Positions 1 to 10,993 of a stretch of 12,603 nucleotides of DNA are shown piece by piece. Position numbers and translations under genes: made by a program. Numbering within the stretch: position 1 is the first letter of the stretch; each line of letters opens with the position of its first letter. Source of the DNA: Candidatus Fermentibacterota bacterium (GTDB lineage Bacteria; JAFGKV01); NCBI GenBank assembly GCA_030620115.1, contig JAUXFG010000113.1, forward strand, positions 1 to 12,603, written 5' to 3'. The notes below the pieces were generated by a model. It searched no databases, was not told the DNA's origin, and saw nothing but the letters and a program-made list of their open reading frames with translations.

Positions 1-129
1 CCTACCTCCTTGTTTAATGTAGTTGATGAGTTCTCTTCTATCAATCGTAACTACCTCGCCAATCAGAAAGAGTACTCCCAAAACACCATCGCCAGTTACA
101 GCGACTGCATCAAACTCCTGATATGTTGA
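1..129 (+). pseudogene. Truncated tyrosine recombinase (integrase) N-terminal fragment
   Basis: The frame is open from the window edge and ends at TGA 127-129, giving 42 residues. The core, NYLANQKEYSQNTIASYSD, matches the pattern of the SAM-like core-binding domain at the N-terminus of phage/XerC-type tyrosine recombinases (Y-L-x-x-Q-x-x-S-x-N-T-I-x-S-Y-x-D). This is followed by IKLLIC and then the stop. A complete enzyme is about 300 residues and has a catalytic R-H-R-Y domain, none of which is present in the following DNA, so this is a remnant. The stop falls inside the perfect palindrome at 119-142, where the family resemblance ends. No start codon is visible, so the 5' end may lie outside the window. 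It faces the truncated TonB operon. The family call rests on pattern recognition of a short stretch; the truncation is seen directly. Confidence 0.55.
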
Positions 130-142
130 GCTCAACATATCA
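119..142. repeat. 24-bp perfect palindrome at the end of the integrase remnant
   Basis: The half site TGATATGTTGAG is followed immediately by its exact reverse complement with no spacer. The next base pair outward (118/143) does not match. The palindrome contains the stop codon of the recombinase fragment. It could be a recombination or target site, a dyad operator, or a rearrangement scar. Confidence 0.85.
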
Positions 143-273
143 AAGGTTCAAAGTTCCCAAACCCTCGTCGGGAGCTTCATCGGAAGTCCCGCAAAAGGCG
201 GGATCGATTTCCCAAAAACTTCCTCCAGAGCTTCGTCGAATCCGAGCCTGGTTTCTTCCATGAATGGTCCCGC
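130..273. other. Intergenic stretch with degenerate ~55-bp duplication and small hairpin
   Basis: No gene is seen. Two related blocks, 154-182 and 209-238, both begin TTCCCAAA and end GAGCTTC(A/G)TCG, offset by 55-56 bp. Between them is a hairpin with 6-bp arms TCCCGC/GCGGGA (187-192 and 198-203) and a 5-nt loop. It lies just beyond the stop of the leftward MotA/TolQ/ExbB gene, so it could act in termination. No T-run follows it in that direction, so no terminator is called. Confidence 0.45.
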
Positions 274-1719
274 CTATTTCCCTGCTGCGGTCGCTGCCGC
301 CACGCCATTCCTCAGCTTCAGGGTATTGATGAAACTTGTGGCGCTTTTCTCCAAACCATCTGCAATGGCGTTCACCCGCCGGTTCAAAAATGCATGCATG
401 AAAAGAAGGGGAATGGCCACAGCCAATCCGGCTTGGGTGGTGAGCAGCGCTTCCGAGATTCCCCCGGAGAGCATTCGCGGATCCCCGGTCCCGAATACAC
501 TGATCAGATTAAAAGTGTGGATCATCCCGGTTACCGTACCGAGGAGACCCAAAAGAGGGGATACCGCGGCGCCCACCGCCAAGAATGAAAGGTGCTGTTC
601 GAGCCGCGGTATTTCTGTTATGAGCGCTTCGTGGAGAATCTCCTCCAGCGTTCCCTTTGGAGCGGCATGATGATCAACTCCTTCCTCCAAGAGACGCTTG
701 AGTGGAGGTTTGGCCGCCTCTACCAATAGAGAAGCGCCCTTCAAGTCGCCGCGTCGAAGGAGCGTGGCTAACTCAGCGAATGGCCGATCAAACGCAATGT
801 CCACGCGCAGAAGTTGCACGAACTTCCAGATCCCGATCCCGAAGGAGAGGAGGCCTACGATTATTATGGGAATCATGACAACGCCGCCGGCCTTCAAAGT
901 CTCAATCGTCGATCGTTTGGCCTCCGAACTCCGGAACACAACACCTGAGGTCAAATCGAGAGGAATTGCGCTGCTGCCACTGGTGACAAGCGCGTGGGTA
1001 GCTCGCGTACCACGCCCATCGAATGGCCAGACGTGAGGATTCGGGCTGCCATGTTCGATCCGAATGAGACCGGCCAGAGAACCATCTGCGCTGAGAAAGA
1101 GACTCTGTACTCCGCCGACATGGATGAACGTTCCCGAAACCTCTTCACCGTCTGGTCCAATAGCAGCACCGGTCGTGGCTCTGATCAGACCCGCATTTCT
1201 TGCTCGTTCGGCATTGAGGTTCAGGAGCCTTGATGCCGCATGAGTCAGGACCTCAGGGTTGGCCAGAGCGCTGTCGAGGAGTGAGTCAATATGCTTCAGT
1301 TCCGGTTGGCTTGATGCCGCGTCAGCAATGCCTAACCGTGTTTCTGTGTCACGCCGGAGTTCCACAAGAAGCGAACGGATTGTCCGAACCTGGTCAATGA
1401 GCAACTCCGCGCGATTTCGCGTAGTCTCAGCCAAAGCATCGCGGCGGTTGAGCTCAATACGCTTCACATCCCATATGCGGCGTTTCCACACCACCTCTGC
1501 TTGGAGTTCGTGTACCTGTCTTGCCAAGCCCACACGTTCCTCGGCTATCCGTTCCCGTGCGGCCACAAGGTCCGCTCGCGTCTGTTCGATTTGACTCCTG
1601 GTTTGAGCCATGGCCTCGACAATCGCCTGATCAGCTGAAGCCGATTCCTGAGCCCATGAATCTGCCCAGAATGGCCAGATCATAAACAAACCCAACAGCA
1701 GAAATGCGGGCAAAGGCAT
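274..1719 (-). CDS. TtpC-like MotA/TolQ/ExbB proton-channel protein with periplasmic coiled coil
   Basis: A 481-residue inner-membrane protein. It has an N-terminal signal/anchor (about residues 2-24), a long coiled coil (about 30-125), and a periplasmic segment with GG..SLFLSADGSLAGLI (about 202-219). A membrane segment follows at about 278-300, then a cytoplasmic stretch. The MotA/TolQ/ExbB core is at about 378-470, with VSPLLGLLGTVTGMIHTF and SEALLTTQAGLAVAIP carrying the Gly- and Thr-rich proton-path signature. ExbB is about 240 residues; the extra N-terminal half matches TtpC of TonB2-type systems, which helps energise TonB receptors. ATG at 1717-1719 overlaps the upstream TGA as TGATG, behind an AGGAGG. 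A TTG one codon earlier (1722) is also possible. It is the third gene of the receptor operon, and the expected ExbB, ExbD and TonB genes do not follow. The family call is firm; the TtpC-like role is inferred from architecture and neighbours. Confidence 0.88.
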   Translation of the reverse strand: MPLPAFLLLGLFMIWPFWADSWAQESASADQAIVEAMAQTRSQIEQTRADLVAARERIAEERVGLARQVHELQAEVVWKRRIWDVKRIELNRRDALAETTRNRAELLIDQVRTIRSLLVELRRDTETRLGIADAASSQPELKHIDSLLDSALANPEVLTHAASRLLNLNAERARNAGLIRATTGAAIGPDGEEVSGTFIHVGGVQSLFLSADGSLAGLIRIEHGSPNPHVWPFDGRGTRATHALVTSGSSAIPLDLTSGVVFRSSEAKRSTIETLKAGGVVMIPIIIVGLLSFGIGIWKFVQLLRVDIAFDRPFAELATLLRRGDLKGASLLVEAAKPPLKRLLEEGVDHHAAPKGTLEEILHEALITEIPRLEQHLSFLAVGAAVSPLLGLLGTVTGMIHTFNLISVFGTGDPRMLSGGISEALLTTQAGLAVAIPLLFMHAFLNRRVNAIADGLEKSATSFINTLKLRNGVAAATAAGK

Positions 1720-2543
1720 CAATGCCCGCCTCCTTCAGGATCTTGACGCCTCATGAGACCAAGCGGAAGGGAAACGAGTTCAGGCGGCCGCTGCTTGGAA
1801 AACACGGCAAAACCTGTTCTGATCACGTCGGCGAGGTCATTGTGAGGAAGGACGACCCAGTCCTCGTGCTCCCGGACGATCATGCCTGCGAGTTTCCCAT
1901 CAGGTGAAACATAATAGCCGATGGCGCCGCCTATGTAGAGGACGTCGGCCTCGATTCGTAGGTCATCCTCCAACTCGAGAACCTGCTGAACTCGATGTAT
2001 TGATCCTAACAGGCGCTGCAGATCCGCTCCGAAGGTTGTGGCAACCTGTAGCCGTTCCGGCGCAGGAGACATTCCATTCCGGCTCCAAGCAATGGGCCGG
2101 ACACGCGTCGCTCCGCCTCCAATCATGGTCGCAAGCGGACTTGGGAGTGTGGCATAGACCTCTAACAATTCCCTGGCGTACTCTTCAATGGCTTGATCCA
2201 GGGAATCGAGAATATTCTCAGACTGCACTGCTCTTGAGGATGATGATGCTTGATCCGTGCTTGCTGAATCGATATCACCTTCTGCAGCATCGAGCAGCTC
2301 TTTTAGCTGTGCCAATTCCTTGGAAAGGAGATCAGACGTTGTCTCGAGATGCGCCTTCTCCTCTTTCCATCCCCCGATCTCGGCCTGAAGCTCCAGCTGA
2401 AGCTCGATATGCTCATGCACTAGGTTCTGGAGGGTTTCCGCGGGGTGAGTTGTCGGACCGGCTGCAAAGGCCATATGAACAGACATGGCAAAGACCATCA
2501 GAAAACCAACGGAGAAATCTCGCAGGCCGGCACTCCTTTCCAT
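1719..2543 (-). CDS. DUF3450-type periplasmic coiled-coil protein of a TonB system
   Basis: A 274-residue exported protein. It has a hydrophobic signal segment (about residues 11-27, ending near AFA) and a long coiled coil at about 35-90. A Ser-rich linker follows at about 93-107 and a helical stretch at about 108-135. The C-terminal part contains RVQQVLELEDDLRIEADVLY and GGAIGYYVSPDGKLAG, resembling the conserved end of DUF3450 proteins (about 250-270 aa), which are commonly encoded next to TtpC/ExbB/ExbD/TonB genes. The molecular function is unknown; a periplasmic accessory role in TonB energisation is inferred from context. The start is 4 nt after the receptor stop and has only a weak upstream GGAA, so translation is probably coupled to the receptor. 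The gene ends TGATG with the next one. The C-terminal motif recurs in the neighbouring TtpC-like protein. Confidence 0.75.
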   Translation of the reverse strand: MERSAGLRDFSVGFLMVFAMSVHMAFAAGPTTHPAETLQNLVHEHIELQLELQAEIGGWKEEKAHLETTSDLLSKELAQLKELLDAAEGDIDSASTDQASSSSRAVQSENILDSLDQAIEEYARELLEVYATLPSPLATMIGGGATRVRPIAWSRNGMSPAPERLQVATTFGADLQRLLGSIHRVQQVLELEDDLRIEADVLYIGGAIGYYVSPDGKLAGMIVREHEDWVVLPHNDLADVIRTGFAVFSKQRPPELVSLPLGLMRRQDPEGGGH

Positions 2544-2547
2544 GTTG

Positions 2548-4710
2548 CTATTCCGACGTCAACGAGATGCCGATGCCGCCGTATACGATCCGTCCGCTCA
2601 GGGGGGCATAGATGAAGGCCGCGTCGTCGGGGTGTCGCTCTTCCTGGACCTGATCAAATACATTCTTGGCTCCCAAGAAGAGCTCGTGGCCCCATACACG
2701 CTTCGCCACGCGTGTATTCACGATGGCAAAGATGTCTGTCTTCTTGATGTAGCTGTCCGGGCTCTCAACGTCATCATCAGCGTTGTAGTCGATGTGCATA
2801 GGGCCGGTAACATCAACGCCGGCGCTGAGCATCCACCCCGTTGGCTTATAGCTCAGTTCGCCGCCGAGTGTCCACTGCGGGACCCGCGAGAGGTATTCGC
2901 TCTTATCGCCGTACAGATCGCCGTGCACCGGATGATCGACCCAGTCACCACGTGGCTCTTCGTACTTCGCGTCCGTGAAAGTGCCGGAAAGATCAAGCTC
3001 CATGCTGCTCAACAGGTAGACCTGTGAGCCGATTTCCACCCCCTGGGTGTACGCATCACCAATATTTTCCCACTGATAATCATAGCCCCGCGATCGGGCC
3101 GTTTCGTCAGCATCTGCGAAATCGATTTTGTCCTTGAGGTTTGTCCTGAAGAGATATCCGCTCAGTGTGAACCGATCCCCATAGTAGTCAGCCCCAAGGC
3201 TGATACTCACCGATTTTTCCGGCTCGAGGTCCGATCCTTTGAACACTCGAGGAGAGCCGGAGCAAAGATGCAGGTCCTCGCTGAACCCATAGGGTACCCG
3301 GAACCCTGTCCCCGCGGCCAGGCGAAAGGTGAGTGTCTCAGATGTTTTGTACTTCAATGCAAACCGGGGATTCACCGAGCTCTCGTCATATTCATTTTTC
3401 ACAGGCGCCGCGCTTCCAGAGCCTCCAAAATTGTCCTCTGACTTGTGCGTATCGTATCTCGCGCCAAGAACAAGCTCTGCTTTATCGGAAATGCGCCACT
3501 CGTCTTGGAGATAGATACCGAAATCGTCCGCATGCTTGTCTGCCACTGACTTATACGGCTCAGGGGTCTCTGGAATTGATGTATCCACGTATTTGCCGGT
3601 TTCCTCCAGCTCGTTTCTGGTGTACAGGGCGCCGGCCAGAATGGTATGGTTGTTGCCGATTGTTTTCTTGTAGCCCATGTCTGTGGCAACTGCGAACTCA
3701 TCCGCGATATAGGGCTCCAGTTCATCGGCGGGCGGTGGAGTGCCGAACGCATCGACATAGTCTCCGAAGTATGTGTCGTTAGTGGCGTTTCTATTGTGGT
3801 CTGAGAGGGTGATGTTGAACATAATATTGTCATCTGAACCGAGTTGTCTCTCATAGCCTACGCCAACCTCATATCGCTGGGTTCGTATGTGCTCCGCTCC
3901 TTCGGCGAATGGGTTCTCGAAAGTCTCAAGCTCCCCGCCCTGCCGCTGTTCATTGAGGCTCGTGAACGAGAATTTCAGCGCACCTCCAAAAGCATCGTGC
4001 CAATTCATCTTCGCGCCAATGGCAACGTTGTCGGACTTGACACGATCGGTGATATCATCGCCATCTTGGTCGACCTCGTCCCCCGTGTTTTTCTGTACCG
4101 TCAGCACCACGTCGGCGTTTCCTTTTCGCAGAGACGAGGTTGCACTGAACACATTGGTGTTGTATTCACCGACTGAGAGGGAAATACTTGTCTTGGGGGT
4201 TCCGGCAGGTTGCCGGGTGATGATGTTCACCACACCTGCAATGGTGCTTGCGCCATATAGTGCTGAGCCGGCGCCCTTCACCACCTCGATCCGTTCAATG
4301 TTTGATGCCGGTATTTGCTGCAATCCGTACACGGACGCCAAACCAGAATAAATGGGCTGCCCATCGAGAAGCACCTGGGTATGGTCGGCGCCTAGACCCT
4401 GCATCCTTAGCTGGCTGAAGTTGCAAGCGGAGCACTGCTGCTCCACGCGGATGCCGGGGAACCCTTGCAGTACTTCGTAGAGATCGGTTGCACCAAGTGC
4501 CGTGATGTCTTCGGAGCTGATGATCTCCGTTCGGACCGGAACATCGATCTGCAGTCGCTTTGTCTTGGTCCCGGTCACCACGTATTCCTCGAGTTCCGTG
4601 ATGTCGCCTTCATCGGATGGGTCTTGCGCGAATACGGCATTCGTCATGCAGACAAATGCCAGCAGACCGACAAGAAGATGAACCGTTGCTGTGCTGAGTC
4701 TTGCTTTCAT
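2548..4710 (-). CDS. TonB-dependent outer-membrane receptor, probably metal/iron related
   Basis: A 720-residue outer-membrane receptor for energised import. The signal peptide runs to about residue 28 (AVFA|QD). A TonB box, EEYVVTG, is at about 41-47. The plug is at about 52-170 and includes QVLLDGQPIYSG, IERIEVVKGAGSALYGA and GVVNIITR, all diagnostic for the plug. The rest is a beta-barrel of about 540 residues, ending near GRIVYGGIGISL. Length fits BtuB/CirA/heme-type receptors (600-750). The plug carries CSAC (93-96) with R102 and M103 nearby, a CxxC that suggests a metal- or heme-linked substrate; the true ligand cannot be told. The start is set by an AAAGGAG about 6 nt upstream. It heads the operon with the DUF3450 and TtpC-like genes. 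A DtxR-family gene and an operator-like site upstream imply repression by metal. Confidence 0.93.
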   Translation of the reverse strand: MKARLSTATVHLLVGLLAFVCMTNAVFAQDPSDEGDITELEEYVVTGTKTKRLQIDVPVRTEIISSEDITALGATDLYEVLQGFPGIRVEQQCSACNFSQLRMQGLGADHTQVLLDGQPIYSGLASVYGLQQIPASNIERIEVVKGAGSALYGASTIAGVVNIITRQPAGTPKTSISLSVGEYNTNVFSATSSLRKGNADVVLTVQKNTGDEVDQDGDDITDRVKSDNVAIGAKMNWHDAFGGALKFSFTSLNEQRQGGELETFENPFAEGAEHIRTQRYEVGVGYERQLGSDDNIMFNITLSDHNRNATNDTYFGDYVDAFGTPPPADELEPYIADEFAVATDMGYKKTIGNNHTILAGALYTRNELEETGKYVDTSIPETPEPYKSVADKHADDFGIYLQDEWRISDKAELVLGARYDTHKSEDNFGGSGSAAPVKNEYDESSVNPRFALKYKTSETLTFRLAAGTGFRVPYGFSEDLHLCSGSPRVFKGSDLEPEKSVSISLGADYYGDRFTLSGYLFRTNLKDKIDFADADETARSRGYDYQWENIGDAYTQGVEIGSQVYLLSSMELDLSGTFTDAKYEEPRGDWVDHPVHGDLYGDKSEYLSRVPQWTLGGELSYKPTGWMLSAGVDVTGPMHIDYNADDDVESPDSYIKKTDIFAIVNTRVAKRVWGHELFLGAKNVFDQVQEERHPDDAAFIYAPLSGRIVYGGIGISLTSE

Positions 4711-4784
4711 GTGAGTCTCCTTTCATGAAGCAATTGCCGATTCCCCGTGCCCAGATATCCCGGATACCCACGTGACTGCAGGGT

Positions 4785-4872
4785 CAGTGGGGCAGTCAGT
4801 GGGCAGTCCAGTGGGGCAGGCGTCCCTGCCTGCCATTCCATCCCCTGCCTGCCATCTTCCCCTGCCTGTCAT
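4785..4872. repeat. GC-rich repeat cluster: three CAGTGGGGCAG and three CCCTGCCTGCCAT copies
   Basis: CAGTGGG(G)CAG occurs at 4785-4795, 4797-4806 and 4809-4819. CCCTGCCTG(C/T)CAT occurs at 4824-4836, 4843-4855 and 4860-4872. The inner copies form a hairpin with arms GGCAGGC (4815-4821) and GCCTGCC (4828-4834) around GTCCCT. A related element with the same ends is at 8149-8238, so this is a dispersed repeat family rather than a chance tract. It would lie in the 5' leader of the receptor mRNA. Confidence 0.8.
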
Positions 4873-4944
4873 CCCAAAGGCACCGGAATAGCCGGAGCAC
4901 ATCTGCCGTGGCCATATCTTGGTCGATATTTGGCACGGCCTATA

Positions 4945-4964
4945 AAGTTTGGCACGCCTAACTT
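4945..4964. promoter_or_regulatory. Imperfect palindrome resembling a DtxR-family operator
   Basis: The dyad has the form AAGTTnGGCnnGCCnAACTT, with 16 of 20 positions symmetric. It resembles the TTAGG...CCTAA type of DtxR/IdeR boxes: on the minus strand it reads TTAGGCGTGCCAAA. A second, poorer copy, TTTGGCACGGCCTAT, lies at 4929-4943. The palindrome covers most of the proposed -10 of the receptor promoter, as expected for a repressor site, and a DtxR-like gene is the next gene upstream. Binding is inferred, not shown. Confidence 0.5.
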
Positions 4965-4987
4965 ATGGTATAAAAAAAGACTGTCAA
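4960..4987 (-). promoter_or_regulatory. Putative sigma70-type promoter of the receptor operon
   Basis: Reading leftward, a perfect TTGACA -35 (4982-4987) is followed by a 16-nt spacer and TAAGTT (4960-4965) as a moderate -10. Transcription would begin near 4953, giving a leader of about 240 nt to the receptor ATG. The -35 is strong and the -10 is only half matching, so the exact start is uncertain. Confidence 0.45.
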
Positions 4988-5055
4988 CCCCGAAGCGAAA
5001 AATCAATTATCTCAGATTCCATGGCCTCCATCATTCTCGTCGCAATATCGAGAAG

Positions 5056-5820
5056 CTAGCTTTCCTCGAGTTCGACAGTGATGAGTGCCGCCTCCTTTTT
5101 TCTAATGGAGAGACTGTAACCCTTGAGTTTGATCTCGAGTGGATCACCCATGGTGGACATCCGCCTGACTTCAACACGGGTCCCTGAACTGGCGCCCATA
5201 TCCACCAGGCGACGGCGGATCGCGCCACTACCGGTCACCTTGATGATTCTTCCTCTCTGCCCGGGTTTCATCTCAGATAATGGCAGCTGCGCAGTCTCGC
5301 CTGGTTTTTTGGCTCTCTTTCTTTGATCGAGGTCGCGAAGGCAAAGCTCTATGCAGCGCCGGCAGTGTTCCGGATCGTAATTGATGTCACACTGATATTC
5401 AAAACCATGGATCCATTTGGCGCCGCCCCTGGGGCATGTCTTGACGAACTCGACGAAGCGCGTGAACCGCTCCATTATCTCAGGGGATACCACATGCTCC
5501 ATCTCGCAGGCCGTGCTGTCAGCGAGTTCATACTCAACGCCAAGGACTTCCATGAAAAACTTTCTGAACACTTCATGTTTCCGAACGATTTCCGCAGCCA
5601 GTGTCTTGCCATGAGCGGTGAGCGTCACAAACTCATATGGTTCGTAGTTTATCAGTCCCTTTGAGGAGAGAGCATGAAGTGCACCGGTTACAGAGGGCCG
5701 TTTTACTTTGAGGCGTTTGGCAATGTCCTTCGCCCTGGCAGCGCCTTTCTCCGAGATGAGGCTGAAGATCGCCTCCAGGTAGTTCTCTAGGCTGACGCTG
5801 AGACTTGAGTTAGCCCGCAT
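5056..5820 (-). CDS. DtxR/IdeR-like metal-dependent repressor with C-terminal FeoA domain
   Basis: A 254-residue cytoplasmic transcription repressor. Winged helix-turn-helix is at about residues 10-75 (SLENYLEAIF...KDIAKRLKV..PSVTGALHAL...VTLTAHG). The metal/dimer domain at about 76-127 contains H82 and the run C105-E-M-E108-H109. This aligns with Cys102-Glu105-His106 of DtxR rather than the Glu of MntR, so it points to iron more than manganese. A linker with C129, C144, C153, C156 and C160 follows. A FeoA/SH3-like domain is at about 178-251 (LSEMKPGQRGRIIKV, RRRLVDMGASSGTRVEV). ATG at 5820 follows AAGGGATC and lies inside the preceding small ORF (11-nt overlap), suggesting translational coupling. 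It lies directly upstream of the receptor operon, which it likely represses. No feoB follows. Family and domain order are firm; metal identity is inferred. Confidence 0.9.
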   Translation of the reverse strand: MRANSSLSVSLENYLEAIFSLISEKGAARAKDIAKRLKVKRPSVTGALHALSSKGLINYEPYEFVTLTAHGKTLAAEIVRKHEVFRKFFMEVLGVEYELADSTACEMEHVVSPEIMERFTRFVEFVKTCPRGGAKWIHGFEYQCDINYDPEHCRRCIELCLRDLDQRKRAKKPGETAQLPLSEMKPGQRGRIIKVTGSGAIRRRLVDMGASSGTRVEVRRMSTMGDPLEIKLKGYSLSIRKKEAALITVELEES

Positions 5821-6004
5821 GATCCCTTCTTTTCTCGTTTGCCCATGTGGCCACTCCCTTGAAGTCGTTGACGAACGCGATAGCTTGCCCCAACCAATCG
5901 AGACGTTGCGAAATGCTCATGCGTTCGAATTCTGTGTGCCCATCGAAATCTTGCTCCACACATCCATTCAACGCAGGCTGAGCCGCTCGTTTGACTATTG
6001 ACAT
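5810..6004 (-). CDS. Small hypothetical protein, probable partner of the nucleotidyltransferase
   Basis: A 64-residue ORF between the nucleotidyltransferase and the regulator. The central part, FERMSISQRLDWLGQAIAF, resembles the short helical proteins (F..M...ERL.WL..A..F) often found beside DUF6036/MNT-like nucleotidyltransferases; this resemblance is from memory and not tested. The start is uncertain: ATG 6002-6004 has no Shine-Dalgarno and sits in a tandem repeat, and an internal GTG at codon 16 or ATG at codon 29 could be used. Its TAA (5810-5812) lies inside the regulator gene. A nucleotidyltransferase plus small helical partner would fit a toxin-antitoxin-like module, but this is inference. 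Composition is ordinary and no catalytic motif is seen. Confidence 0.55.
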   Translation of the reverse strand: MSIVKRAAQPALNGCVEQDFDGHTEFERMSISQRLDWLGQAIAFVNDFKGVATWANEKRRDHAG

Positions 6005-6026
6005 ATGACTATTGACATATGACTAT
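5992..6026. repeat. 14-bp tandem repeat, 2.5 copies
   Basis: TGACTATTGACATA occurs at 5992-6005 and 6006-6019, followed by TGACTAT (6020-6026). Read leftward, each unit brings a TAG and an ATG. The array joins the stop of the nucleotidyltransferase (6023-6025) to the start of the small ORF (6002-6004) and creates a decoy 7-codon ORF starting at 6018. Confidence 0.9.
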
Positions 6027-6535
6027 CGAGCTTCGCCATTCCGGCAAAGGATGGCTCGCAATTCCGCTATATCCAGTTGATCCTTGGGCCGTGGTGGATC
6101 AATCTGTTCCTTCAGTGCGATGAGTTTCTCAGCAGATACCACACGTAATCTCCGGCCCTCTGATTCCACGGTCACGGAACTCCGCATCAAGGCGGGGAAT
6201 GAGAGTTCTTTGCGCAAGAACACATCAACGTGTTTGAATGGGATCTGGGGATCGATGAATGTAAAAACAAAGGCGTTCTTCTCTTCGATCATCTCCTGGA
6301 CCTTCTTGGGTTCCATCAAGGAATGGGCAGGTACCGGCGCCCGTGGCTCCATGGCGAATTCAGACATGATCCCCAGGAATTTCTGGACATTATTTGGCTC
6401 CATATTCAGCGCTATATCCAGGTCCAGAGTGATTCGTTCCACTCCGTGAAGCACCGCGGCGACACCGCCGCCGATGATGAAATCGACTCTGAGATCGGCC
6501 AGCGCATAGATGATCTCTTTCAGGTAGTTCCGCAT
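6023..6535 (-). CDS. Minimal nucleotidyltransferase (MNT/DUF6036-like)
   Basis: A 170-residue protein of the DNA polymerase beta-type nucleotidyltransferase fold. It contains GGGVAAVLHG (about 22-31) followed by TLDLDI, giving the DxD metal pair D38/D40, and a likely third acidic residue in KHVDVF (D104). The C-terminal SAEKLIALK...RPKDQLDI (about 134-155) is typical of the AbiEii/DUF6036-like group. Such proteins transfer nucleotides to RNA or protein and are often toxins or partners of small antitoxins; the substrate is unknown. The frame extends to 6613, but the ATG at 6535 was chosen for its AGAGGAA ribosome site, the N-terminus typical of the family and a promoter just upstream. The small ORF follows after 18 nt, so the two are probably co-transcribed. 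Confidence 0.82.
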   Translation of the reverse strand: MRNYLKEIIYALADLRVDFIIGGGVAAVLHGVERITLDLDIALNMEPNNVQKFLGIMSEFAMEPRAPVPAHSLMEPKKVQEMIEEKNAFVFTFIDPQIPFKHVDVFLRKELSFPALMRSSVTVESEGRRLRVVSAEKLIALKEQIDPPRPKDQLDIAELRAILCRNGEAR

Positions 6536-6570
6536 ACCGTGATTCCTCTGATGCAAAGGATTGACAAAAA

Positions 6571-6599
6571 ATGATAGATGCTCTCCACGCAGAACGCAA
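6571..6599 (-). promoter_or_regulatory. Putative promoter of the nucleotidyltransferase
   Basis: Reading leftward, TTGCGT (6594-6599), a 17-nt spacer and TATCAT (6571-6576) form a plausible sigma70-type promoter. The -10 matches 5 of 6. Transcription would start about 30 nt before the ATG at 6535, supporting that start over the longer frame. It could also drive the small ORF and the DtxR-like gene. Confidence 0.4.
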
Positions 6600-6698
6600 G
6601 GAACATGTATCACAAGATTGTTATGGAGAGCCGCCTTCCCCCCGATGACGGGCTTCTCTTTTGCCCGAGCATGGTCGAGGGGCTCAATAGCTCATCCG

Positions 6699-8021
6699 CT
6701 ACCCCGGACCGATCTTGGGTGGGGTATAGGTCCCGCACAGGTCGACCTTCTCGATGTACTTGCTGTTCCAGCTTCCGTCAAAAAAGGCTCCGGCTTCTGC
6801 GGCAATACCCTTGCCGTAGAAAAAGAGACTGACGTTCCGTGATTGGAAGAAACCGCCTCGGGTCCAGTTGGATGTACCGATCCAGCACACATTATCGTCG
6901 GCAATCATGTATTTCGGGTGTTCCACCCGGGCGTAGGGGATGAACCCTCCAGACCATTCCGGGATGTTCGAAAACCGAATATCGATTCCTGGTACGGCGG
7001 CAAGACTCAATACGAAGGGCAAGATATGGCCGCGCTTACTCCAGTTTGAAAGAATAATCTGAACTGTGACGCCACGCGCTGCTGCTCACTTCAAGGCGCA
7101 TTCGAGGGTCTCGTAGTACCTCCCAGCTCTGTCGACAGGCATGAAGGTCAGGAGATGTAGACGAATCCGGGCCCTGGCACCGTCGATTGCCTGTTGGAGT
7201 AGCGGCTCATCCCAACCTATTCCTTCCGGCAATGCTTGGTTGGGGCTGGCGGCGAGTATCACCTTTGTCCCATCCCCTGATTCTGTCTCGAGAAGGAACG
7301 GCCCCCTAATCCCAGACTTCACAGACACATTCTCGCGTTTTCCCGGTGAGTCGCCGGGGGCTTGCTCCCCAACTGACCTCTCCCAGTCCATGAGGAAGAC
7401 AGTCTCCAGAGCGTGAGCGAGGCCTTTGTGGCGGATTCGCACACCAAGCTCATGGATATGCTCGAGAGCCCGCCAATCCCAATTTTGGCTGCCGACGAAC
7501 AGCTCCTCACCGTCTACGATGAAGAACTTCGCGTGGACCACGCCGCCCCATAGACCGCCGGCGTCGATAATCCGTGTTTCAGTGTTTGGCAACTGACCGA
7601 ACCGTTCGAATACCTCCGGATAGGTCTCATGGAACCCTGCATCCGAGAGCATTCTCACCCGGACTCCTCTTCTCGAAGCATTCTCCAGGGCCTTTAGAAT
7701 CAACTCGAAACGATTTTCTCCTGGCCCGGCGCTGAAGTAGAATGCTTCTATGTCAATTGTGCTCGTTGCGCTGTCGATCATCTGCAGCCAGACTTCCGGC
7801 GTGTTTCTCAGACCAGGGAGATCGAGAGAAGTCTCAATCGGAATGCTTTCCACCAGCTCCACGATTCCTCGTTCTCCGTTCGCTCCCAGCTTTTTCTCGA
7901 GGCCACCCTTTTCGTGCGGCAGAGACACCGTCCATTGTCCGGCAGCCACCTGACACCACACACAACAGAGTGAGATCATCACCCCAATGGCACACGTCCT
8001 TTTCATCAAGAAAGCTCTCAT
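6699..8021 (-). pseudogene. Secreted phospholipase D-like protein, interrupted by an in-frame TGA
   Basis: One continuous frame of 440 codons is split by TGA at 7086-7088 (codon 312). The first part has a signal peptide (about 1-28) and the first HKD motif, HAKFFIVD (H163, K165, D170), with GSQNWDWR after it. The part after the stop continues in the same frame with AAARGVTVQIILSNWSKRG and the second HKD motif, HPKYMIAD (about 368-375), then GTSNWTRGG. Both motifs are needed for the PLD active site (phosphodiester/phospholipid hydrolysis or transfer). A single CGA-to-TGA change would explain the break. Shorter products of 311 and about 107 residues are possible. ATG 8021 was chosen for AAGGAAGAG just upstream and because the signal peptide follows it. 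TGA serves as a normal stop in neighbouring genes, so code reassignment is unlikely. Sequencing error cannot be excluded. Confidence 0.8.
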
Positions 8022-8041
8022 CGCTCTTCCTTTGTCATATT

Positions 8042-8070
8042 CCGGACTTCTCACCAACCTTCGTCGCGAA
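8042..8070 (-). repeat. 29-bp dispersed repeat, copy A
   Basis: Read leftward it begins TTCGCGACGAAGG and ends GGTGAGAAGTCCGG. It matches copy B (8735-8763, opposite orientation) at 28 of 29 positions. It lies 20 nt before the PLD-like start and can be read as FATKVGEKSG. Confidence 0.9.
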
Positions 8071-8410: not shown

Positions 8411-10993
8411 ATGACCCAAGACAGCATGATAGGAGTGCTTCTGGGAATAGCCATTCTCAGTCTCGTGACATGTCCAAATGTCTTCGGAACAGACCTCCTG
8501 GTCTGTTCGGGATTCACAGCGAGGGAGATTGCCTTTGCCGAGCAGACAGCACGATCCGACCTAACCCGAACTTCTCGCCAATCCCGCGTCGGCCGCGGGA
8601 CTGCAACAACTGATCCGGCACTTCCTGCTTTCCGCCAGCTGGCGGACTCGGTCGACCGGCCTCGGCGTATCGCAGAGGATACGCCTTCGACCGGCCTTGG
8701 TCGCAGGCCTTGCAGGCAATACCGTCTCAGCCGTTTCGCGACGAAGGCTGGTGAGAAGTCCGGGCTAAGACAAGCAGCGACTTCTGGTTTCTTCGGTCGC
8801 AGTCCCTGGGAATCCCGTGGCATCGGTGGCGGTGGGGCATTCTACTCCGCATCGATAAGCCCGCATGACTCTCTATCCATCTACATAGCCACGGACATGA
8901 GTGCTGTCTTCCAGACCCCTGATTTTGGTCGAAGCTGGGATACCGTGGATTTCAGGGTAGTGCAGGGTGGCATCAATTCTCATGTGCGATTCACGTCCGA
9001 CCCGCTGATCCTGTACGTGGTGAACCGCGCAAATGATTCCGGCACACCGATGAAAAGCCACGACGGCGGAACTTCATGGTCGGTTTTGAGCGGCGATCCC
9101 ACATGGGCCGAGGCTTTCTACCTTTTTGCAGATCCTCATTACACCGAGCGCCTTCTCTTGTCGGACTGGATGAACCTCTACTTCTCTGACGACGGAGGAT
9201 CCAGCTTCACCCTGGTCTATACTGCCGCAAGCTCCGACTACGGTCTTCATGTGGCAGGCGTATTCTGGGACGGTGAAGACATCTATGTGGGAACCAATGA
9301 TGGTGTTCTGGTCTCCTCAGATGCAGGTGAGAACTTCTATTTCTGCTTCACATTTTCCTATGGTGAGGGTATTCCTGACGATGAAGCGATCGCTTCCTTT
9401 GCTGGAGCCAAGGAGAACGATGTTGTCCGCTTCTTTGCGGTAACGTTGAACAGGGATGCTGTGTGGGGCGGCGTAACCGGTGAAGAGATGTGGTCATACC
9501 GGGGCATCTACAGAGTGGATTGGGGTGTCGGTGAGTGGACCAAGGTGACCAACGGTATCCCCTCCAATGTCCGTCCTTTCTTCGTGGGCATGGCCCTGGA
9601 CGAAATCGCTATCGCCTATGTTGCAGGAGGAGATGCTTCCAACGGCTTTCCCTCGGTGTTCAAGACCACGGATGGCGGCGATAGCTGGGACAACGTGTTC
9701 TACACAGAGAACAACCAGAACATTGTGACGGGTTGGTGTGGTGATGGTGGCGATACGCAGTGGTGGTACCCTGAGTACGCTCTTGGCTTCGCGGTCTCTC
9801 CTACACAGCCCAACCGGGCGATTATCACCGATCTTGGCTTCGCTCATGTTACTGAGAATGGAGGAATCACGTGGCGACAGGTTTATGTAGACTCCATGTA
9901 CGAGAATCCTGCCGGCAGCGAGACTCCCAACGGTCTGAATTATGGCGGCATCGGTCTGGAGAATACAAGCTGCTGGTGGCTTCACTGGGTGGGGCGTGAC
10001 GCTCTTCTCGCGGGTTTCAGCGATATTCGAGGGATTCGTAGTGAAGATGGGGGAGAGACGTGGACGGCCGGATCGAGTCTCGGTCTTCCACACAATAGCA
10101 CCTACTACATCACCGAGCACCCCGAATCGGGGGTGCTGTATGCTGCAACGTCCTCTGTGCATGACATGTACGAAAGCACGCGTCTCACGGATGCTACCAT
10201 CGATGGGGGAACGGGGCGCGTGATTTGGTCTGCCGACGCGGGAGCCTCGTGGCAGACGTTGAAGGATTTCGGCCATGGCGTGATGTGGTTGGCCATGGAT
10301 CCCAACGACAACGAGAGTCTCTATGCCAGTGTTGTCCAGAGTACGGCCGGCGGGATCTACGTCACTTTTGACTTGAGCGCCGGAGCATCGGCCACATGGA
10401 GCCAGCTCTCTGCCCCTCCCCGCACCCAGGGTCATCCCTTCAACATCCACGTTCTGAATGACGGAACCTTGGTGGCGACGTACTCCGGTCGAAGGGAAAG
10501 TAGCGGCTTCACAGAGAGCTCAGGGGTATTTGTGAGCACGAACGGTGGGGTCTCATGGGTTGATCGATCCGATCAGAATATGAGGCGCTGGACCAAGGAC
10601 CTTTTAGTTGATCCCCACGATTCGGCACAGAACACGTGGTATGTCAGTGTTTTCAGTCACTGGGGCAGCGCCCCAAATGAAGTTGGAGGGCTTTACCGGA
10701 CTACTGACCGTGGCGTGAGCTGGTCGAGGATCAGCGATCTCTACAGAGTTGAGTCAGCTACGGTTCACCCAGACAGCTCGCAGGTCCTCTTCCTCTCTAC
10801 AGAGACGCAAGGCCTCTGGCGAACCGACAGCCTGGGATCCATAAATCCCGCTTTCGTGCAATTGCCCGAGTATCCGTTCCGCAATCCAACCCGCATCTTT
10901 TTCGATCCATGGACCTCAAACAAGATATGGATAACCAGTTTCGGCAACGGTTTAAGAGTTCGTGACCAGAGTAGGGGAGAGCACAACGAATAG
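8411..10993 (+). CDS. Secreted Asp-box (BNR/VPS10-like) beta-propeller protein
   Basis: An 860-residue exported protein. The signal segment is at about residues 6-26 (GVLLGIAILSLVTCPNVFG). A linker at about 58-118 is encoded by repeat DNA, and the propeller region runs from about 138 to 850. About ten Asp-boxes (S/T-x-D-x-G-x-[ST]-W) are visible: 169-176, 216-223, 259-266, 302-309, 419-426, 481-488, 544-551, 607-614, 709-716 and 764-771. The IGGGGAFYSASISPHD entry resembles sortilin/VPS10-like and GH74-like propellers, but no catalytic pair can be assigned, so the ligand is unknown. ATG 8411 was chosen for AGGAAGGAAGAA directly upstream and the signal peptide; the frame opens at 8321. Unlike the convergent propeller, it has no FlgD-like or sorting tail. 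The repeat copy in the N-terminal linker is odd. Confidence 0.85.
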   Translation: MTQDSMIGVLLGIAILSLVTCPNVFGTDLLVCSGFTAREIAFAEQTARSDLTRTSRQSRVGRGTATTDPALPAFRQLADSVDRPRRIAEDTPSTGLGRRPCRQYRLSRFATKAGEKSGLRQAATSGFFGRSPWESRGIGGGGAFYSASISPHDSLSIYIATDMSAVFQTPDFGRSWDTVDFRVVQGGINSHVRFTSDPLILYVVNRANDSGTPMKSHDGGTSWSVLSGDPTWAEAFYLFADPHYTERLLLSDWMNLYFSDDGGSSFTLVYTAASSDYGLHVAGVFWDGEDIYVGTNDGVLVSSDAGENFYFCFTFSYGEGIPDDEAIASFAGAKENDVVRFFAVTLNRDAVWGGVTGEEMWSYRGIYRVDWGVGEWTKVTNGIPSNVRPFFVGMALDEIAIAYVAGGDASNGFPSVFKTTDGGDSWDNVFYTENNQNIVTGWCGDGGDTQWWYPEYALGFAVSPTQPNRAIITDLGFAHVTENGGITWRQVYVDSMYENPAGSETPNGLNYGGIGLENTSCWWLHWVGRDALLAGFSDIRGIRSEDGGETWTAGSSLGLPHNSTYYITEHPESGVLYAATSSVHDMYESTRLTDATIDGGTGRVIWSADAGASWQTLKDFGHGVMWLAMDPNDNESLYASVVQSTAGGIYVTFDLSAGASATWSQLSAPPRTQGHPFNIHVLNDGTLVATYSGRRESSGFTESSGVFVSTNGGVSWVDRSDQNMRRWTKDLLVDPHDSAQNTWYVSVFSHWGSAPNEVGGLYRTTDRGVSWSRISDLYRVESATVHPDSSQVLFLSTETQGLWRTDSLGSINPAFVQLPEYPFRNPTRIFFDPWTSNKIWITSFGNGLRVRDQSRGEHNE
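8582..8697. repeat. Palindrome-rich repeat DNA inside the propeller gene
   Basis: In order: hairpin TCCCGCG/CGCGGGA (8582-8600, 5-nt loop); perfect palindrome TCCGCCAGCTGGCGGA (8631-8646); palindrome CGGTCGACCG (8649-8658); hairpin GGCGTATC/GATACGCC (8664-8685, 6-nt loop). The last hairpin is flanked by direct repeats TCGACCGGCCT (8652-8662 and 8687-8697). It encodes low-complexity, Arg-rich residues of about 58-96 and keeps the frame open. Confidence 0.85.
8735..8763 (+). repeat. 29-bp dispersed repeat, copy B
   Basis: It matches copy A (8042-8070, opposite orientation) at 28 of 29 positions. Here it lies within the propeller gene and is translated as FATKAGEKSG (about residues 109-118), the same phase that copy A allows. 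Confidence 0.9.

Follow-up and report, generated by a model that had tools for sequence, protein, structure and literature searches.

A decayed RIT element that very probably lies at the ttpC/exbB junction of a TtpC-type TonB operon spread over two contigs of a Candidatus Fermentibacterota genome

In the genome analysed here (4.10 Mb, 296 contigs, 98% complete), a RIT element, since decayed, has very probably inserted between ttpC and exbB of a TtpC-type TonB operon, and a break of the assembly inside the element would explain why the operon shows up on two contigs, C43 and C290. Both the operon type and the kind of element are known, and the event is an ordinary one for mobile elements. The window, i.e., the whole stretch of DNA that was analysed (12,603 bp), is the complete contig C43, and its left edge is an assembly end. 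The initial annotation described a TonB energisation operon that ends abruptly next to a broken integrase; the discontinuity after the TtpC-like gene is real, but because the window is a complete contig, part of the abruptness is merely the contig end. The left part of the window contains the following features:

1-126, forward strand: putative 5' remnant of ritC, the third tyrosine recombinase gene of the RIT element, 42 codons (alignment with RitC N-termini)
119-142, no strand: perfect 24-bp palindrome TGATATGTTGAGCTCAACATATCA, two inverted TATGTTGAG half-sites, ritC-side terminal mark of RIT
about 155-274, reverse strand: A half of a dispersed intergenic repeat (some 50 partial matches in the genome)
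274-1722, reverse strand: ttpC, ExbB-like, 482 aa, intact (Pfam MotA_ExbB, residues 339-457, E 5.9e-31)
1719-2543, reverse strand: ttpB, DUF3450 protein, 274 aa (PF11932, E 2.3e-20)
2548-4710, reverse strand: TonB-dependent outer-membrane receptor, first gene of the operon, a TonB3-like layout (PF00593, E 3.7e-45; PF07715, E 1.2e-25)
5056-5820, reverse strand: neighbouring DtxR-type metal regulator with a FeoA domain (PF02742, E 1.5e-20; PF04023, E 2.4e-20)

Pfam matches and ORF coordinates confirm that the row of operon genes on C43 stops after the TtpC-like gene. ttpB and ttpC overlap by 4 bp, and the ttpC product, which carries a periplasmic/coiled-coil extension at its N-terminus, aligns over nearly its full length with TtpC of intact operons (31% over residues 1-468, E 5e-66). 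TtpC-type TonB2/TonB3 operons are recognised by a DUF3450 gene that immediately precedes a long ExbB-like ttpC, which is the arrangement seen here. In Vibrio vulnificus, the TonB2 operon reads ttpB2-ttpC2-exbB2-exbD2-tonB2-ttpD2, ttpD2 encodes a TPR protein, and all components are needed for iron-siderophore uptake, while the Vibrio TonB3 operon has a receptor as its first gene (PMC6957404). ttpB occupies the same place on C43 as ttpB2 does in Vibrio (PMC6957404). The window receptor is 48% identical to the one that precedes a TtpC operon in another genome (L133), and the adjacent DtxR-FeoA regulator suggests iron or manganese control of the system.

Since a search of relatives with ttpC gave just one weak match, synteny was drawn from DUF3450 matches (16 loci in 13 other genomes); two genomes of the same family had no DUF3450 match. 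In all 16 loci, unlike on C43, ttpC and exbB are adjacent (spacing approx. -8 to +250 bp), no recombinase separates the two, and exbB is followed 3' by exbD and then usually by tonB and a TPR gene. The corresponding genes of the present genome were found on C290, a contig of 5,558 bp that starts within two recombinase genes and reads, from left to right, ritB-like (running off the contig edge, reverse strand), ritA-like (reverse strand), and then, all on the forward strand:

2065-2685, forward strand: exbB
2682-3095, forward strand: exbD, overlapping exbB by 4 bp
3092-3802, forward strand: tonB, overlapping exbD by 4 bp
3859-5286, forward strand: TPR gene (ttpD), matching TPR proteins of such operons (to E 2e-51)

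Thus, exbB, exbD, tonB and the TPR gene are all present on C290 in the canonical order, and their contiguity with ttpC would run through the RIT element. The suggestion that the motor genes had been lost can be discarded, whereas the other possibility raised initially, displacement by a mobile element, gains support from the fact that the motor genes on C290 adjoin the other part of a recombinase trio. A location just beyond the window in the same orientation, which the initial annotation had regarded as contradicting its reading, is probably the actual one in the sense that the genes lie just across the element. Taken over both contigs, the six gene families follow the Vibrio TonB2/TonB3 order, with the receptor first as in TonB3, but here in a distant lineage and with a mobile element between ttpC and exbB.

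The initial annotation also allowed for an orphan pair that works with motor genes elsewhere. In that case, ttpB-ttpC would have been without motor genes of its own from the start, or would have lost them, and would rely on the ExbB/ExbD set of C53, C139, C183 or C272. Such sets do exist: the search of the whole genome returned six ExbB-type matches (TtpC included) and six ExbD-type matches. However, C290 carries the operon-specific remainder, including the ttpD-type TPR gene, and when the ExbD proteins of the operons were compared with those of this genome, the C290 ExbD ranked top in every case over the five others. The corresponding ExbB ranking, in which C290 was the best of five non-TtpC ExbBs in 11 of the 16 loci, is supportive but weaker. 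The C272 set, moreover, has a YbgF-like gene and TolB-like repeats for neighbours, which resembles the layout of a Tol-Pal cluster. On the basis of gene context and ExbD scores, C139, C53, C183 and C272 were rejected as the missing operon half, and an orphan pair is accordingly highly improbable.

The recombinase remnant would link C43 to the insertion. The initial annotation correctly recognised a truncated tyrosine-recombinase fragment on the other strand, ending in a palindrome, although it appears to be the third gene of a RIT element rather than a lone integrase. The product of bases 1-126 reads PTSLFNVVDEF...IKLLIC*, with the in-frame stop falling inside the palindrome. Alone, the fragment gives a weak Pfam match (Phage_int_SAM_1, E 0.008) and, as too short a query, matched no plasmid, but against five trios its best matches are RitC N-termini, and it aligns in register with residues 15-40 of the intact RitC of C196 (50% over 26 aa, E 4e-5). 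Judging from this match of 26-40 aa, the fragment is probably the start of ritC. A short frame at a contig end (C125:5321-5440), considered as the rest of ritC, was rejected, as by eye it reads like the C-terminus of an integron-type integrase.

An intact trio lies on C196. Three adjacent, distinct tyrosine recombinases of 421, 302 and 343 aa in the order A-B-C (each Phage_integrase, E 8.2e-24 or better) are flanked by perfect 35-bp terminal inverted repeats (6706-6740 and 10167-10201), and ritB and ritC overlap by 4 bp. This agrees with published RIT elements, including that of Cupriavidus metallidurans CH34, which are recombinase trios with short overlaps (PMC2864759, PMC3414803) and terminal inverted repeats of 34 bp (PMC10214605), although their mobility was still undemonstrated according to a 2012 paper (PMC3414803). 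GInt, Tn554-like and SE elements likewise contain several tyrosine recombinases in a row (PMC10214605), but the C196 trio showed no ginD/tnpC-like gene as a fourth member. By eye, the intact C196 element (L120) appears to be inserted, at approx. 6500-6701, in a REP-associated tyrosine transposase-like gene (MPRGPRLDTTGALHHVMVRGIE...LLRNH).

A RIT on a Sphingobium plasmid, found with the C290 RitB, clarifies the ends of these elements. It has an inverted terminal repeat of paired half-sites at its ends, and the ritC end alone also bears a palindrome (ATTTATGCCGATATCGGCATAAAT) made up of two half-sites in inverted orientation; in both this RIT and C196, the palindrome lies approx. 80-90 bp after ritC. 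The window palindrome is therefore read as the mark of the ritC end. The 4.1-Mb genome contains exactly four copies of its 18-bp core (C36, C43, C102 and C196), whereas no genomic copies with 1-2 mismatches were found and the reversed control gave 0, so that chance is not a plausible origin. On C36 (L123), a 5.3-kb contig that lacks a recombinase gene, a solo RIT palindrome (603-630 plus flanks) lies intergenically within a longer perfect palindrome (GGGCTCCTGATATGTTGAGCTCAACATATCAGGAGCCC). The terminal half-site pair, TATGTGAAG-N8-TATGTGGAG, has six genomic copies at 0 mismatches, at RIT ends only (C102, C127, twice on C196, C269, and C290 at 1854), and none convincing in the two same-family genomes.

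It should be considered whether the junction on C43 is an assembly artefact, in which bases 1-118 would be a chimeric contig end joined at the palindrome. The junction does lie exactly at the palindrome and near a contig end. Nonetheless, the tail 1-118 has no match on any other contig, 24 bp of palindrome would make a short k-mer overlap, and the palindrome together with its outer flank also marks RIT ends elsewhere, as a genuine feature of such ends; even in a chimera, the RIT end would still adjoin ttpC. We therefore regard an artefact as improbable.

The element pieces on the two contigs complement each other. For the proposed copy at the ttpC/exbB junction, C290 supplies ritA, ritB and a single terminal repeat, and C43 supplies the start of ritC with the palindrome, while the body of ritC and its terminal repeat are absent. 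C290 ritA (40% to C196 RitA over 308 aa) contains one in-frame TAA, and ritB (38% to C196 RitB) has a frameshift near base 115-139. C290 ends at approx. residue 235 of the 302 of RitB and C43 starts at approx. the ritC start codon, which, from the trio alignment, puts the gap at an estimated 200 bp or so. Because the ritC fragment directly abuts the palindrome, the remainder of ritC, together with the inner terminal repeat, has been deleted. The palindrome after ritC is shared with the Sphingobium RIT; the copy beside ttpC differs from known RITs in being decayed, and its proteins are only approx. 33-40% identical to proteobacterial or C196 members. The GC content of the C43 ritC piece (43%) differs from that of the element on C290 (56%), possibly only as an effect of the short sequence.

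A dispersed repeat, which the initial annotation missed at approx. 155-274, provides a further join. Its A half lies between ttpC and the palindrome on C43, its B half (on C290 from approx. 1902) beside exbB, between the RIT end and exbB, so that the RIT end interrupts one half on each contig. Counted from search matches, the repeat family is abundant: each half has at least 40-50 scored matches, and the B half has 242 first-look candidates. Of 20 genomic copies that were retrieved, 10 have the A half and then the B half, with order and orientation preserved, approx. 0-62 bp apart. A small open frame, MEETRLGFDEALEEVFGKSIPPF..., was seen in the repeat (window 155-274, C290 1902-2000). The operon halves, the RIT halves and the repeat halves A and B are three independent pairs whose members match in order and direction. 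From this complementarity we infer that C43 joins C290, although no sequence spans the two contigs.

Alternatively, ttpB-ttpC and exbB-ttpD may once have formed one operon and then been separated to distant loci by recombination between RIT copies, each half retaining a partial RIT. The genome does contain several RIT ends, and exchange between copies (with ends at the contig ends of C269, C127, C102 and C196) could have moved either half. An identical 117-bp RIT end, at C102 (L122) 1-117 and at the contig end of C127 (L140), has two different outward neighbours, the palindrome in C102 and ACAGTTACCG in C127, and the point of divergence falls exactly behind the 8-bp spacer ACCCGTGA. Either there were two insertions or the element moved recently within the population, possibly with crossover at the spacer. 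On the other hand, the recombinase pieces of C43 and C290 are complementary rather than overlapping, and the split repeat fits a single insertion site, which leaves such a separation unlikely, if somewhat less so than the other alternatives. The other RIT ends at contig edges carry no motor genes.

For the single insertion, the following course can be envisaged. A receptor-ttpB-ttpC-exbB-exbD-tonB-ttpD operon would have acquired the dispersed repeat at its ttpC/exbB junction before the RIT arrived, and the RIT would then have inserted within that repeat with its genes opposed to the operon. Decay would have followed through the in-frame stop in ritA, the frameshift in ritB and the deletion of ritC from approx. 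codon 40 to the palindrome, and a break of the assembly approx. 200 bp inside the element would make the operon appear as C43 and C290. exbB-ttpD would now depend on a promoter of its own or on read-through against the element genes; simple promoter scans found no sigma-70-like promoter upstream of exbB and nothing upstream of the receptor. It is very doubtful that the RIT end serves as a control point, at which a palindromic, recombinase-binding end parts receptor-ttpB-ttpC from the motor genes, so that the halves are expressed independently or were once switched in trans by the C196 trio.

Several further observations concern the remainder of the window. An AbiEii-like nucleotidyltransferase gene (6023-6613, reverse strand; Pfam E 5.9e-5) adjoins a short ORF (5810-6004), and the two are a possible toxin-antitoxin-like pair. 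A phospholipase-D-like gene (6699-8057, reverse strand) has one in-frame stop after ...LECALK, and the PLD-like frame continues to approx. 6699. A dispersed repeat (approx. 8620-8770, forward strand) lies in frame in the 5' part of an 890-aa BNR-repeat ORF (DRPRRIAEDTPSTGLGRRPC...FATKAGEKSGL) and shares 77-80% identity with its copies on further contigs such as C183; the true start codon of this ORF may lie downstream of the repeat.

Draft-genome contigs that stop at such mobile elements can mimic gene loss. The most reusable part of the analysis is the consistent anatomy of RIT ends, i.e., at either end 9-bp half-sites that are paired across 8-bp spacers, plus a two-half-site palindrome at the ritC end. 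In the reading preferred here, the locus documents how a mobile element can sit within an operon for a multi-protein energy-coupling machine whose genes show no visible destruction. All operon genes are open while the RIT element is broken, a contrast that suggests continued usefulness of the system. ExbB/ExbD/TonB, together with TtpB, TtpC and TtpD, would energise the receptor, as shown for Vibrio TonB2, and this machine most likely still powers it from the proton gradient.
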